Assembly (NCBI GenBank): GCA_016777565.1
Contig: JADHRF010000008.1
Span: 1 to 34,920 of the forward strand
Direction of reading: 5' to 3'
DNA: 34,920 nucleotides
Source: Pelagibacteraceae bacterium
GTDB taxonomy: Bacteria; Pseudomonadota; Alphaproteobacteria; Pelagibacterales; Pelagibacteraceae
The translations under genes and the position numbers were made by a program. Of the stretch, positions 3,582-7,457 are shown one piece after another. The first letter of the stretch is position 1. Every line of letters starts with the position of its first letter. Under the pieces are notes generated by a model that searched no databases, had not been told where the DNA came from, and saw only the letters and a list, made by a program, of their open reading frames with translations.

Positions 3582-4483
3582 TCTTTTTTCCTGCCAAAAT
3601 CTGGTTTATTAGTGTCTTGTCCTGCTTTAATAATTTCTTTTCTCAATTCTTTTGTTGAATTAAAAATCTGGTAAAGTTTATCTCCATTTTTATCATTTAA
3701 AGCTTTTTTGAGCTCCTGAAGTTTTTCAATAAAATTATCGATACTTTTTGAAATATTTTCATTGTTATCTATAAAAATATCTCTCCACATCAAAGGATTT
3801 GATGCGGCTATTCTTGTAAAATCTCTTAAACCGCCAGCGCTATACTGAATTACCTCTTGTTTTAATTTGTCTTCAACGTTAATTACAGTTCTAACAATGT
3901 TATAAGCAATCGCATGTGGCAAATGACTGGTTAAAGATAAAATTTCATCATGTTCTTCTGGTGTCATTATCTTAACCTTGCTTCCAATAGCCTCCCATAA
4001 CGATTTCAAAATTTGTATTGGCTGTTCATTGCTTTCTTTTGGCGGAGAAATGATACACCAACGATTTTTAAACATATCTGCATGACCTGCTTTTGGACCA
4101 GTTTCTTCTGTGCCCGCTATAGGATGAGAGGGTATCCAATTAATCTCTTTTAAGTTTATATTATGAATAATTTTCATTACTTCTTTTTTAACTGATCCTG
4201 TGTCTGTTAAAATTGATCCTTTTTTTAGATCATCCTTTATAGACAGTATTATTTCTTTGTAGCTACTCAAGGGTGTAGCGATAATTATTAAATCAGAATT
4301 TTTCACACACTGTCTAATATCTGTTGAAATATAAGAGCATATATTTTCTTTTTTTAGATAAGTAGTAACCTCTTTTGACAGATCGAAAATTCTTACTTCT
4401 TTTGCTAAATTTTTATTTTGGATTGCTCTTAAGATTGAAGATCCTATCAAACCACAACCAATTATAGATACAGTGTTAAACAT
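3578..4483 (-). CDS. tyrA: Prephenate/arogenate dehydrogenase
   Basis: Oxidative decarboxylation of prephenate (or arogenate) on the route to tyrosine, cytosolic. The N-terminus is a Rossmann dinucleotide fold with GCGLIG at 9-14, followed by IIIATPLSSY, the substrate-loop segment SHPIAGTEETGP with the conserved histidine, and SHLPHAIAYN in the helical C-terminal dimerisation domain. At 301 residues it is a monofunctional TyrA with no chorismate mutase or ACT domain visible. NAD versus NADP use and prephenate versus arogenate cannot be decided here. It overlaps hisC by 8 bases (4476-4483) and is presumably translated from the same mRNA. Its tail overlaps plsC on the other strand. Confidence 0.92.
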   Translation of the reverse strand: MFNTVSIIGCGLIGSSILRAIQNKNLAKEVRIFDLSKEVTTYLKKENICSYISTDIRQCVKNSDLIIIATPLSSYKEIILSIKDDLKKGSILTDTGSVKKEVMKIIHNINLKEINWIPSHPIAGTEETGPKAGHADMFKNRWCIISPPKESNEQPIQILKSLWEAIGSKVKIMTPEEHDEILSLTSHLPHAIAYNIVRTVINVEDKLKQEVIQYSAGGLRDFTRIAASNPLMWRDIFIDNNENISKSIDNFIEKLQELKKALNDKNGDKLYQIFNSTKELRKEIIKAGQDTNKPDFGRKKD

Positions 4484-5558
4484 TAAGAATTTTTTTTAAT
4501 TCAGATATTAGTTTTAAGTTTTCTTTATTATTTCCAATAGTAACTCTTAAAGAGTTTTTTATAGAATATACTTCCATTTGTCTTAATAAAATTCCTTTTT
4601 TTGCTAAAGCAAAAAAGACTTGCTTAGAATTTTTTTTAATTCTATTAAAGTTTATTAATAAAAAATTTACACTCGTTCTATTTGTGTGAATATTTAAACT
4701 TTTAAAGAATTCATAAAACTTTTTTGACCATTTTCTTACATGGTGTATTTCTTTATTAAGCCAGCTAGTATCTTTTATAGCAACTGAGGCTGCAAACAAA
4801 GCTGGTCTGCTCACATTAAAAGGAGGTTTTATTTTGTATAATGCTTTAATTATATCTTTTGATGAGTATGCCCAACCAACTCTTAAACCAGCTAGGCCAT
4901 AAATTTTAGAGAATGTTCTTGTTATTAAAACATTTTTAAATTTAGAAAATAGTTTTAATCCATTTTCATAATCTTTAAAATTCATATACTCAAAATACGC
5001 ATCATCAACAACTAAAAGAATATCGCTTCTTAATTTTTTTCTTAATCTAAGTATCTCATTTTTACTTATATAAGTTCCTGTTGGATTATTAGGATTTGCA
5101 ATAAAAACAACTTTGGTTTTACGGGTCACACATGAAAGAATATTATTTACAGAACAAGTAAAATTATTTTCTTTGGCGTATACTATCTTCGCAAAATTAA
5201 GTTTGCTGTAAATTCTATAAATAATAAAACTGTATTGTGATATCACAACTTCATCATTTTTATTTAAAAAACCTTTGCAGATAAGTTCAAAAACTTGATC
5301 TGAACCGTTTCCTAAAATAATTCTATTTACGTCCAAATTAAATTTTTTTGCTATAACTTTTCTTAAAAAGGTTCCATCTGAGTCAGGATATCTTTTAAAA
5401 TTTTTTGAAACTTTAATATATTCTTTTACTGCTTTTGGGCTTGGGCCTAAAGCAGACTCATTTGCAGATAACTTTATTCTAGCAAATTTTTGCTTAAATA
5501 AACTTAATCCTGCAACGTACTTCTCTGCATTTAAGCTTTTAGCTTTAGGTAGTTTCAT
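4476..5558 (-). CDS. hisC: Histidinol-phosphate aminotransferase (also likely aromatic aminotransferase)
   Basis: Fold-type I PLP aminotransferase of histidine synthesis that converts imidazole-acetol phosphate to histidinol phosphate. Visible features are the N-terminal SANES (31-35), NPNNPTG at 155-161, VVDDAY (183-188) with the PLP-ring aspartate, the Schiff-base Lys218 in TFSKIYGLAGLRVG, and a C-terminal arginine in SLRVTIG. At 360 residues it has the usual family length. Pairing with tyrA is a common alphaproteobacterial arrangement in which this enzyme is thought to serve tyrosine/phenylalanine transamination as well, which is inference. It is transcribed away from metX, with 182 bases between the two start codons. 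Confidence 0.93.
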   Translation of the reverse strand: MKLPKAKSLNAEKYVAGLSLFKQKFARIKLSANESALGPSPKAVKEYIKVSKNFKRYPDSDGTFLRKVIAKKFNLDVNRIILGNGSDQVFELICKGFLNKNDEVVISQYSFIIYRIYSKLNFAKIVYAKENNFTCSVNNILSCVTRKTKVVFIANPNNPTGTYISKNEILRLRKKLRSDILLVVDDAYFEYMNFKDYENGLKLFSKFKNVLITRTFSKIYGLAGLRVGWAYSSKDIIKALYKIKPPFNVSRPALFAASVAIKDTSWLNKEIHHVRKWSKKFYEFFKSLNIHTNRTSVNFLLINFNRIKKNSKQVFFALAKKGILLRQMEVYSIKNSLRVTIGNNKENLKLISELKKILNV

Positions 5559-5623
5559 AATTTATTTAAGTTCATATCTAAAAAGCTTTATTATTTCTAT
5601 CTTCATTTTAATTTCTTATAAAA

Positions 5624-5652
5624 TTGACAACTTTAACGCCATCTAGTACAAC
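5624..5652 (+). promoter_or_regulatory. Promoter of metX-metW-gloB
   Basis: A perfect -35 hexamer TTGACA at 5624-5629 is followed after 17 bases by TACAAC at 5647-5652, which matches 4 of 6 positions of a sigma-70 -10 box. Transcription would start around 5658-5660, at the first bases of the riboswitch P1 stem. The position relative to the aptamer supports this choice. Confidence 0.7.
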
Positions 5653-5654
5653 AC

Positions 5655-5708
5655 TTTAGCGCTGATTTAACCAAATTGCGGGCGCTAGATAAAATTCGCT
5701 AAATAGGG
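5655..5708 (+). promoter_or_regulatory. SAM-II riboswitch aptamer
   Basis: S-adenosylmethionine-binding leader of the SAM-II class (known from alphaproteobacteria and marine metagenomes, commonly upstream of metA/metX). The diagnostic stretch AGCGCTGATTTAACC begins at 5658. Stem P1 is AGCGC (5658-5662) with GCGCT (5682-5686), extendable by TTT/AGA outside. The H-type pseudoknot is TTGCG (5676-5680) with CGCTAA (5697-5702), leaving one U unpaired (5700), as in the SAM-II fold. The aptamer precedes metX, which fits feedback by the end product of the pathway. Recognition is by recalled consensus and hand pairing, not a covariance search. Confidence 0.93.
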
Positions 5709-5724
5709 TTCTGCCCAGTTTAGC
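5698..5724 (+). promoter_or_regulatory. Predicted antiterminator hairpin of the SAM-II switch
   Basis: GCTAAA (5698-5703) is the exact complement of TTTAGC (5719-5724), and GGG (5706-5708) of CCC (5714-5716), with a U-G pair at 5704/5718 and one A-A mismatch at 5705/5717. This makes an 11-step helix closed by a 5-base loop (TTCTG). It uses the 3 prime strand of the SAM-II pseudoknot (5697-5702) and captures most of the 5 prime arm and the loop of the terminator, so it excludes both. Predicted logic: without SAM this hairpin forms and transcription continues; with SAM the pseudoknot holds its left arm and the terminator forms. The pairing is directly visible; the switching is inference. Confidence 0.72.
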
Positions 5725-5738
5725 TGGGCTTTTTTTTT
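5713..5738 (+). terminator. Rho-independent terminator in the metX leader
   Basis: GCCCAG (5713-5718) and CTGGGC (5724-5729) form a perfect 6-bp GC-rich stem with loop TTTAG, followed immediately by nine T residues (5730-5738). This is a textbook intrinsic terminator in an otherwise AT-rich region. It lies just downstream of the SAM-II aptamer and ends two bases before the metX start codon, so it is taken to be the expression platform of the riboswitch. Confidence 0.9.
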
Positions 5739-5740
5739 AT

Positions 5741-6874
5741 ATGAACTATAAAATTGAAAATACAAAAAAAATAATTATAAATAAACCACTTAAATTAGAC
5801 TGTGGTCAAACAATAGAAGATTTCCCTATTGCTTATGAAACATATGGAAAACTTAATGAAAAAAAAAATAATGCGATCTTAATTTTTCATGCTCTTACTG
5901 GTGATCAGTTTGTTACAGGTAATAATCCTATTACCAATAAAGATGGCTGGTGGGCTACCGCCGTCGGCTCAGGAAAAGCGATAGATACGGATAAGTATTT
6001 TATTATTTGTGCAAATGTTTTGGGTGGTTGCATGGGGTCTTTTGGTCCAAAGAGTATTAATGAAAAAAAAAAAGAACCTTATGGCTTAAGTTTTCCAGTG
6101 ATTACCATTAGAGATATGGTTAGAGCTCAAGATGCTTTGCTAGAACATCTCGAGATTGATAAACTTTTAAGTGTGTTTGGTGGTTCCATGGGAGGAATGC
6201 AACTTTTGCAGTTTTGTGCTCTATATCCTGAAAAAACTTTTTCTGCTGTACCTATTGCCTCAACAGCAAGTCACAATGCACAACAAATTGCATTAAATGA
6301 ATTAGCTAGACAAGCAATCATGAGTGATCCGTTGTGGAATAAAGGTAACTATTATCAAAATAACAAGATTCCAAAAAATGGACTTGCGGTTGCTAGAATG
6401 GCTGCACATATTACTTATATGTCTGACAAAGGTTTGCAAGAAAAGTTTGGACGAAAACTTCAGGAAAAAAAGGATTATGAATTCACTTTTGACGCTGACT
6501 TTCAAATAGAAAGTTACTTAAGACATCAGGGTAAGGTTTTTGTAGAAAGATTTGATGCAAATTCTTATCTCTACATTTCTAGAGCAATGGATTACTTTGA
6601 TTTGTCTAAACAGTTTAAAAGTGGTTTAAGTGAAGCATTTCAAAATCATAAAACTAAATTTTTGATAGTATCTTTTTCCTCAGACTGGCTCTATCCTACA
6701 AAAAATAGCAAAGAAATTGTTATTGCTTTAAATGCTTCTGGAGTCAATGTTGCTTTTGCAGAAATTAAAACTGACAGGGGGCATGACTCCTTTTTGCTTG
6801 ATGAGCCTGAATTTCTAAAAACTATTAAAGGATTTTTAGACACAAATTTTGAAATATTTAAAAATGAAAAATGA
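5741..6874 (+). CDS. metX: Homoserine O-acyltransferase (MetX family)
   Basis: Alpha/beta-hydrolase-fold transferase that activates homoserine by O-acylation, entering methionine synthesis. The nucleophile elbow is GGSMGG with Ser149; the triad is completed by Asp315 in SSDWLYP and His348 in RGHDS. The family blocks FHALTGD, GCMGSFGP and GGMQ are present, and 377 residues is the normal length. Whether it uses acetyl-CoA or succinyl-CoA cannot be settled from these motifs, although MetX proteins paired with metW are usually called acetyltransferases. The ATG at 5741 lies two bases after the T tract of the leader terminator and has no Shine-Dalgarno sequence. Expression is predicted to be switched off by SAM. 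The gene overlaps the start of metW. Confidence 0.95.
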   Translation: MNYKIENTKKIIINKPLKLDCGQTIEDFPIAYETYGKLNEKKNNAILIFHALTGDQFVTGNNPITNKDGWWATAVGSGKAIDTDKYFIICANVLGGCMGSFGPKSINEKKKEPYGLSFPVITIRDMVRAQDALLEHLEIDKLLSVFGGSMGGMQLLQFCALYPEKTFSAVPIASTASHNAQQIALNELARQAIMSDPLWNKGNYYQNNKIPKNGLAVARMAAHITYMSDKGLQEKFGRKLQEKKDYEFTFDADFQIESYLRHQGKVFVERFDANSYLYISRAMDYFDLSKQFKSGLSEAFQNHKTKFLIVSFSSDWLYPTKNSKEIVIALNASGVNVAFAEIKTDRGHDSFLLDEPEFLKTIKGFLDTNFEIFKNEK

Positions 6875-7457
6875 ATTTAAAATTATAGCAAATTTACTTC
6901 CGTCTCAATCAAGAGTGCTTGATGTTGGTTGTGGAGATGGCACTTTAATTAAAGCACTTATTAATGAAAAAAGTATTGATGCTAGAGGAATCGAATTAGG
7001 TAAAAATAATGTTAAAGAATGTATTTCAAAAGGACTCTCTGTAATAGAAGGAAACGCAGAAACTGAACTTAGTCAATTTCCTGATAAGGCTTTTGATTTT
7101 GTAATTTTAAGTCAAACCCTTCAAGCATTTTATCAACCAGAAAATGTACTTGAACAACTATTAAGAATTGGCCATCGAGTAATAATTTCAATTCCTAATT
7201 TTGGTTATTGGCAAATTAGAGCTAAACTATTATTTTTTGGAAAAATGCCTATAACTAAGTCTTTACCTTACTCCTGGCACGATACGCCTAATTTACATAT
7301 GTGCTCTATAAAAGATTTTTATCAATTTTGTGAAAAGAAAAAGGTTCGAATAGATAGAGTTATTGGCATCAATGGAGAAAAAACATCTTCTATTTATAGA
7401 ATCAATTTAGAAATGAAAAACTTATTCTCAGAAGTTGGCATATTCTTAATTAGTTAA
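6864..7457 (+). CDS. metW: MetW, SAM-dependent methyltransferase-fold protein partnering MetX
   Basis: Small class I methyltransferase-fold protein that accompanies metX in many proteobacteria and has been linked to homoserine acyltransferase function. Motif I is VLDVGCGDG near the N-terminus, followed by KAFDFVILSQTLQAF and a MetW-typical segment with WHDTPNLHMCSIKDF. I prefer the ATG at 6864 (MKNEFKII) over one five codons upstream at 6849 because MetW proteins start about this far before the glycine loop. Either start overlaps the end of metX, so translation is probably coupled. Length from 6864 is 197 residues. It is cotranscribed with metX and so falls under the SAM-II switch. Confidence 0.92.
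   Translation: MKNEFKIIANLLPSQSRVLDVGCGDGTLIKALINEKSIDARGIELGKNNVKECISKGLSVIEGNAETELSQFPDKAFDFVILSQTLQAFYQPENVLEQLLRIGHRVIISIPNFGYWQIRAKLLFFGKMPITKSLPYSWHDTPNLHMCSIKDFYQFCEKKKVRIDRVIGINGEKTSSIYRINLEMKNLFSEVGIFLIS

Follow-up and report, generated by a model that had tools for sequence, protein, structure and literature searches.

A SAM-II riboswitch with a predicted transcription-termination platform in the metX leader of a SAR11 bacterium

Genes and aptamer at the metX locus

The stretch of DNA analysed (34,920 nt, contig JADHRF010000008.1 of a Pelagibacteraceae bacterium), hereafter the window, carries two divergent genes around the region of interest. On the minus strand lies a gene which, from its sequence, we take to be histidinol-phosphate-aminotransferase-like. 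On the plus strand lie metX, encoding homoserine O-acetyltransferase, and metW, which overlaps the 3' end of metX and whose real start is uncertain within its first codons. The intergenic elements follow one another on the plus strand in the order TTGACA, SAM-II aptamer, hairpin, tract of nine T and metX ATG at 5741 (Table 1), and the aptamer thus has genes of methionine synthesis directly downstream, the gene context of the SAM-II class in alphaproteobacteria. As divergent genes flank the metX leader, a plus-strand terminator here ends no upstream gene, and the reading of the hairpin as the end of the minus-strand gene was ruled out. A phage origin was also considered; region 5600-5780 gave no match in 50,697 phage records.

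Table 1. Features of the metX locus and its leader in the window
Feature	Position	Strand	Basis
Divergent upstream gene	4476-5558	-	ORF list
-35-like promoter element TTGACA	5624-5629	+	sequence
TAGTAC, 3' of the -35-like element	5644-5649	+	sequence
Predicted SAM-II aptamer (pseudoknot)	5657-5710	+	RF00521 match, identity to model SAM-II RNA
P1 5' strand, pairs with 5682-5686	5658-5662	+	fold and base check
P2 5' strand	5669-5679	+	base identities checked
P1 3' strand	5682-5686	+	fold and base check
P2 3' strand; 5698-5708 doubles as antiterminator left arm	5698-5710	+	base identities checked
Intrinsic terminator hairpin, 5713-5719 with 5723-5729	5713-5729	+	terminator scan, folding
Antiterminator right arm, pairs with 5698-5708	5714-5724	+	folding, chance test, base check
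T9 tract	5730-5738	+	sequence
metX, homoserine O-acetyltransferase	5741-6874	+	solved homologue 2pl5, E 1e-108
metW	6849-7457	+	Pfam MetW, E 1.3e-73 for 6861-7454

For comparison, 65 distinct metX leaders of relatives (85 records) were collected by having a terminator, and its presence among them is therefore by construction. The TTGACA element was not among the results of a simple promoter scan of the window. The distance from its end to TAGTA is 14 nt in 56 of the 65 distinct leaders, while the hexamer was absent from the 60 nt searched in seven and stood in another register in two. Transcription of the leader probably starts near 5655-5660. The metX ATG, two bases past the T tract in the window, keeps exactly this position in all 65 leaders (chosen by their terminator), and the T run counted by script was nine in 64 of them and ten in one.

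With Rfam at the gathering threshold, zero matches were obtained in the window. When an E-value threshold was applied, SAM_alpha (RF00521) matched 5649-5723 with 27.6 bits against a gathering score of 36 (E 2e-4), and at E<=0.001 this was the sole match in the 1.17-Mb genome. The class named in the preliminary description was therefore recovered by the Rfam model, but only below its cut-off. The aptamer is identical to the model SAM-II RNA at 41 of 52 positions, and P1 positions 2/30 carry a change, C-G in the model RNA versus A-U in the window. The pairs of an H-type pseudoknot, joining the P1 loop to the 3' tail around the conserved core, can all be formed in P1 and P2, as judged by base complementarity. 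In P2, GC 5698-5699 pairs with 5678-5679, AA 5701-5702 with 5676-5677 and GGTT 5707-5710 with AACC 5669-5672, while U5700 is unpaired; this register is our assumption, taken over from the known SAM-II fold. The 3' pseudoknot strand had been described as 5697-5702, which was correct for the strand and too short for its extent, as it runs further along 5698-5710. Judged by its sequence, 5657-5710 is most likely a SAM-II aptamer.

Terminator, antiterminator and conservation in relatives

An intrinsic terminator lies between aptamer and gene, as in a transcriptional riboswitch. Its stem was noted before as 6 bp followed by nine T; the six Watson-Crick pairs and the T tract were found as described, together with one additional G-U pair and a TTA loop. 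Termination would be expected near 5735-5738. The left arm of the alternative hairpin, 5698-5708, falls entirely within the 3' strand of P2, and these bases are common to the antiterminator and the ligand-bound aptamer, which are mutually exclusive. Terminator and antiterminator are almost equal in stability (-12.0 versus -11.2 kcal/mol), and the free fold of 5696-5726 reaches -12.4 kcal/mol. When growing chains were folded in steps of 3 bases (nested folds, without kinetics or pseudoknot), the lowest-energy structure was the antiterminator at 5724 and 5727 and the terminator from 5730 on.

Both hairpins are more stable than expected by chance. In 200 shuffles each, the stability of the antiterminator fragment 5696-5726 was never reached (z -4.15) and that of the terminator fragment 5711-5742 was reached once (z -3.59); the whole leader is moderately unusual, with 11 of 200 shuffles equally good (z -1.91). 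Complementarity as good as that between the P2 strand and the terminator hairpin was reached by 3 of 2000 random hairpins in which the stem was kept and by 10 of 2000 shuffled left strands.

In the genus, RF00521 at E<=0.01 matched 127 of 169 genomes, none of them above the Rfam cut-off. In the order, at E<=0.001, 158 of 198 genomes gave a match, which exceeded the cut-off in 21. The gathering score thus hides SAM-II in all 169 genus genomes searched. Unselected counts of conservation were obtained from two pattern searches of the same 169 genomes, whose reversed control gave zero matches. The strict metX-type aptamer pattern was present in 118 and the pattern of P2 strand plus terminator in 120; all 118 are among the 120, the extra two being G063 and G158. 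Of the 14 genomes with a completeness of 90% or more, 12 contained each pattern; the remaining genomes are mostly less complete. The preliminary description had considered the layout unusual; by these counts (118/169 and 120/169) it is instead the rule in the genus, and this architecture, as far as pattern matching can tell, prevails among the metX leaders of the SAR11 genus.

Some counts depend on how the leaders were called. The regular expression for the aptamer missed 42 of 202 loci, of which 38 were read by hand and four (L053-L056, weak Rfam matches with no core) were dropped. A terminator was called in 83 of 164 distinct leaders, including one spurious call (L193, in coding sequence 57 nt downstream). 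In the second family of the order, 15 rows that are listed without a terminator do have one, with a loop exceeding the allowed 10. In that family, where metX shared 60% identity in the single pair compared (L002), the terminator stands at the same place after the aptamer with a different sequence. In three of the four leaders tested from this family, 115, 178 and 183 per 2000 random hairpins paired equally well, and the pairing there may be due to chance; for the fourth, L015, the count was 3 per 2000. The antiterminator register assigned automatically in this family is unreliable, and its rows were left out of the covariation evidence.

Covariation between 5698-5708 and 5714-5724 had been proposed as a check of the antiterminator. 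Because both arms are almost invariant across the metX leaders, such covariation is nearly uninformative there, and what these arms offer is, from the alignment, evidence of conservation rather than covariation. The alignment contained only 25 distinct metX fragments out of 53 fragments, and L135, with an A/T-only hairpin, was excluded from the pair counts. A second leader type, here called tandem-type, forms the nine antiterminator pairs without interruption and with other bases in 11 of 17 distinct fragments, while at least one break occurs in six. Pair +6 is G-C in 15 of 17 tandem-type fragments and U-A in two, versus C-G in seven, U-G in five and an A.G mismatch in 13 of the 25 metX fragments. 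At pair +7 the tandem-type fragments have C-G (15) or A-U (two), and not one of the 25 metX fragments has a standard pair. Both bases of +6 are thus changed when metX leaders are compared with tandem-type leaders, and within the tandem type both bases change at +6 and also at +7. In the longest fragment folded, the terminator was favoured in 4 of 63 metX rows (L102, L109, L115, L146) and also in the tandem-type L156.

Several other leaders were observed during these searches. In the metX leaders of genus g6 (for example L119:1480-1568 (-), L161:289-368 (-), L137:28-112 (+)) a different platform is found, which has no GC-rich terminator. There P2 is followed by T5-9 and then by conserved CTC[A/T]CAATTC(A), complementary to TGAATTG-C-GAG of the aptamer, often together with TCAGC, complementary to GCTGA. 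This platform comprises 53 distinct leaders, and the genomes with its strict pattern, 56 of 247 in the family, all belong to one genus of 14. An anti-aptamer hairpin was obtained in six of six leaders folded singly (L119, -18.6 kcal/mol), and the alignment fold of 50 gave P1 only. The anti-aptamer is not an ordinary antiterminator because it lies after the T tract; as a guess, the pseudoknot itself could act as the terminator hairpin. In genus g7, L135 carries a SAM-II aptamer before a metW-like coding sequence (sequence reading), with its A/T-only hairpin ending in T8. Twelve loci (L100, L158, L163, L165, L168, L171, L179, L180, L181, L185, L191, L193) are translational by anatomy, with GGAG or GGAGG within the P2 strand; the frames that follow in L100 and L165 are small ORFs (59 and 55 aa, respectively), that of L165 having no Pfam match. 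The genome of the window also encodes three SAM-V riboswitches (L031, L032 and L033, on contigs C41, C6 and C4). Two of them precede a homocysteine S-methyltransferase-like frame (sequence reading), and the third follows a SAM-II with a terminator. At L033 this second SAM-II-like leader was seen by pattern only and is missing from the RF00521 results for this genome.

Proposed control of metX and alternative readings

The anatomy of the leader is that of a transcriptional OFF switch, and it is very probable that the SAM-II riboswitch controls metX and the overlapping metW through transcription termination. Without SAM, nascent 5698-5708 would pair with 5714-5724 while the terminator stem is still unfinished; RNA polymerase would read through the T tract and metX would be made. 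With SAM, the pseudoknot would occupy 5698-5710 and block the antiterminator, the hairpin 5713-5729 would form and transcription would stop at the T tract. Since the antiterminator comes first in growing chains without ligand, SAM would have to act by locking the left arm in the pseudoknot. High SAM would most likely end metX transcription via the leader. The possible pairings are seen directly, while ligand, direction, termination and co-transcription of metW are deduced from the genes present and from the SAM-II class. All elements located in the preliminary description were found in place, and its reading as SAM-II with terminator, antiterminator and OFF logic is supported by the anatomy and by conservation in relatives.

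The same P2 strand could instead serve translational control, with SAM-bound P2 hiding a Shine-Dalgarno sequence (the G-run 5706-5708) and blocking ribosomes, as is described for the model metX SAM-II in passages of PMC10907184, PMC12434664, PMC5352136 and PMC6061858. An ATG does follow the G-run directly in 42 of the 65 distinct metX leaders, in 41 of them in frame with metX. It is missing in the other 23, however, as it is between G-run and terminator in the window, and where present it begins 0 to 2 bases past the G-run and enters the terminator stem. The downstream metX ATG stands at its constant place in all 65. In the one genome with T10 the upstream ATG is out of frame (15 codons) and metX is open from the downstream ATG, although a homopolymer error is possible there. 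In the window, 32 bases including the terminator separate the G-run from the ATG at 5741, a distance at odds with translational SAM-II, and an SD-like 4-mer at -18 to -4 precedes only one of 29 ATG ORFs of at least 150 aa (ORF starts assigned mechanically). The 12 leaders of the order with a translational anatomy are built in another way, with GCTAAAGGAG or GGAGG, an ATG 3 to 4 bases on and no terminator there. From the position of the start codon, the unconserved upstream ATG and the near absence of SD-like sites, the translational reading of the window was rejected as extremely improbable.

Termination might also be only one part of the response, if SAM in addition lowers the translation or the stability of the read-through RNA. 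Such dual control would extend the termination model; effects of this kind, including translation at a distance, have been reported for the S. meliloti metA SAM-II (PMC9373788), and the tandem SAM-II/SAM-V leaders of relatives join both levels by their anatomy. The metX aptamer, in contrast, is followed by no SAM-V, its ATG stands two bases past the T tract and the three RF01826 matches of the genome sit on other contigs, which makes dual control improbable here. A hairpin that is a constitutive attenuator or chance terminator, no longer switched by the aptamer, would have a parallel in the metA terminator of S. meliloti, which passages of PMC9373788 predict to be unresponsive to its SAM-II. 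Against this stand the location of the antiterminator arm within the P2 strand, its better-than-chance pairing and the presence of the linked terminator in every one of the 118 genomes with the aptamer pattern, and this reading is very improbable. The termination switch has to be reconciled with one experimental result: according to PMC11508383, a Pelagibacter tandem RNA lost its SAM-II response when the terminator-holding linker was present (full-length RNA). This fits an antiterminator that dominates at equilibrium but can also be read as evidence that SAM-II does not work as a switch in that RNA, and any simple switch model has to account for the block of the SAM response by the linker.

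The model SAM-II RNA and other known systems

The 52-mer called 'SAM-II-WT-RS' is presumably the crystallised Sargasso Sea metX aptamer (PDB 2QWY). It is printed under this name in PMC8494917, and PMC12434664 states a length of 52 nt and the entry 2QWY. The numbering AAAG50G51A52 used in PMC5352136 agrees with the 52-mer apart from the last base. A search of the genus showed the exact 52-mer (52/52) in two genomes, those of uncultured Pelagibacteraceae AG-914-J05 (L061) and AG-918-M15 (L062), and a version with up to three mismatches in 42 of 169. Both hosts are Pelagibacteraceae, which belong to the alphaproteobacteria. In each of them the 52-mer is followed by GATGCCCAGTTTAGCTGGGC, nine T, GG and the metX ATG. 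The exact 52-nt model RNA scores 34.1 bits on RF00521 against the cut-off of 36. It resembles the window in its 41/52 identity and in having the same terminator after it in its native genomes, and differs in being translational in print and in a construct that ends before the terminator.

The translational assignment of this RNA, judged by its native leaders, is probably wrong. We consider it likely, and with good confidence, that the 52-nt metX SAM-II RNA, treated since 2008 as the classic translational switch, acts in its native genomes as a transcription-termination switch, in which the "Shine-Dalgarno strand" would be the left arm of the antiterminator and the adjoining AUG an unconserved triplet entering the terminator stem. 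Papers up to 2025 call such a 52-nt RNA a classic translational switch. Among the matches listed in the literature search, judged by title or start of abstract, none describes a terminator on the model metX SAM-II; that listing did not extend to Gilbert 2008 or Poiata 2009, where such a statement would most probably stand. The biophysics of this one SAM-II RNA, from crystal structure through smFRET and NMR to simulation, has been interpreted through the hiding of a Shine-Dalgarno sequence. If the termination reading is true, the two states of the model RNA would exchange a shared strand, contrary to the relevant passage of PMC12434664, and the key constraint would be the competition of the pseudoknot with the antiterminator during transcription, while a few tens of nucleotides are made. 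The missing expression platform could then be joined to the model construct and tested directly.

Termination by SAM-II is known from elsewhere. The preliminary description held that SAM-II is usually translational, whereas PMC6061858 calls the majority transcriptional, and intrinsic terminators in many representatives were noted in 2005 (PMC1273637). Termination by other SAM-II leaders is reported or predicted in passages of PMC9373788 (metZ), PMC9481103 and PMC1273637, and a passage of PMC5069961 already classes the SAM-II of Pelagibacter metX as affecting transcription. Transcriptional SAM-II riboswitches (RF00521) such as that of S. meliloti metZ share with the window the aptamer class, a methionine-gene target, a terminator after P2 and the OFF logic, according to passages of PMC9373788 and PMC1273637; the window differs in its start codon two bases after the T tract and in a score below the Rfam cut-off.

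The tandem SAM-II/SAM-V leaders of SAR11 (bhmT), from the same genus and order, are alike in the succession of SAM-II, terminator and antiterminator. SAM-V was confirmed downstream in six of seven tandem-type loci tested, the next frame of the seventh (L186) being metF-like. The metX leader differs in having no SAM-V, and no SAM_V match was obtained in the window at either the gathering or the E-value threshold. In SAM-I (S-box) riboswitches, too, one strand is common to the ligand-bound aptamer and the antiterminator, as in the window, while the aptamer fold is unrelated to that of SAM-II. The window offers an ordinary, clear-cut case of what is likely feedback by SAM on SAR11 methionine synthesis; its element adds to the known transcriptional kind of SAM-II, and the more useful result is the probable correction to the model RNA.
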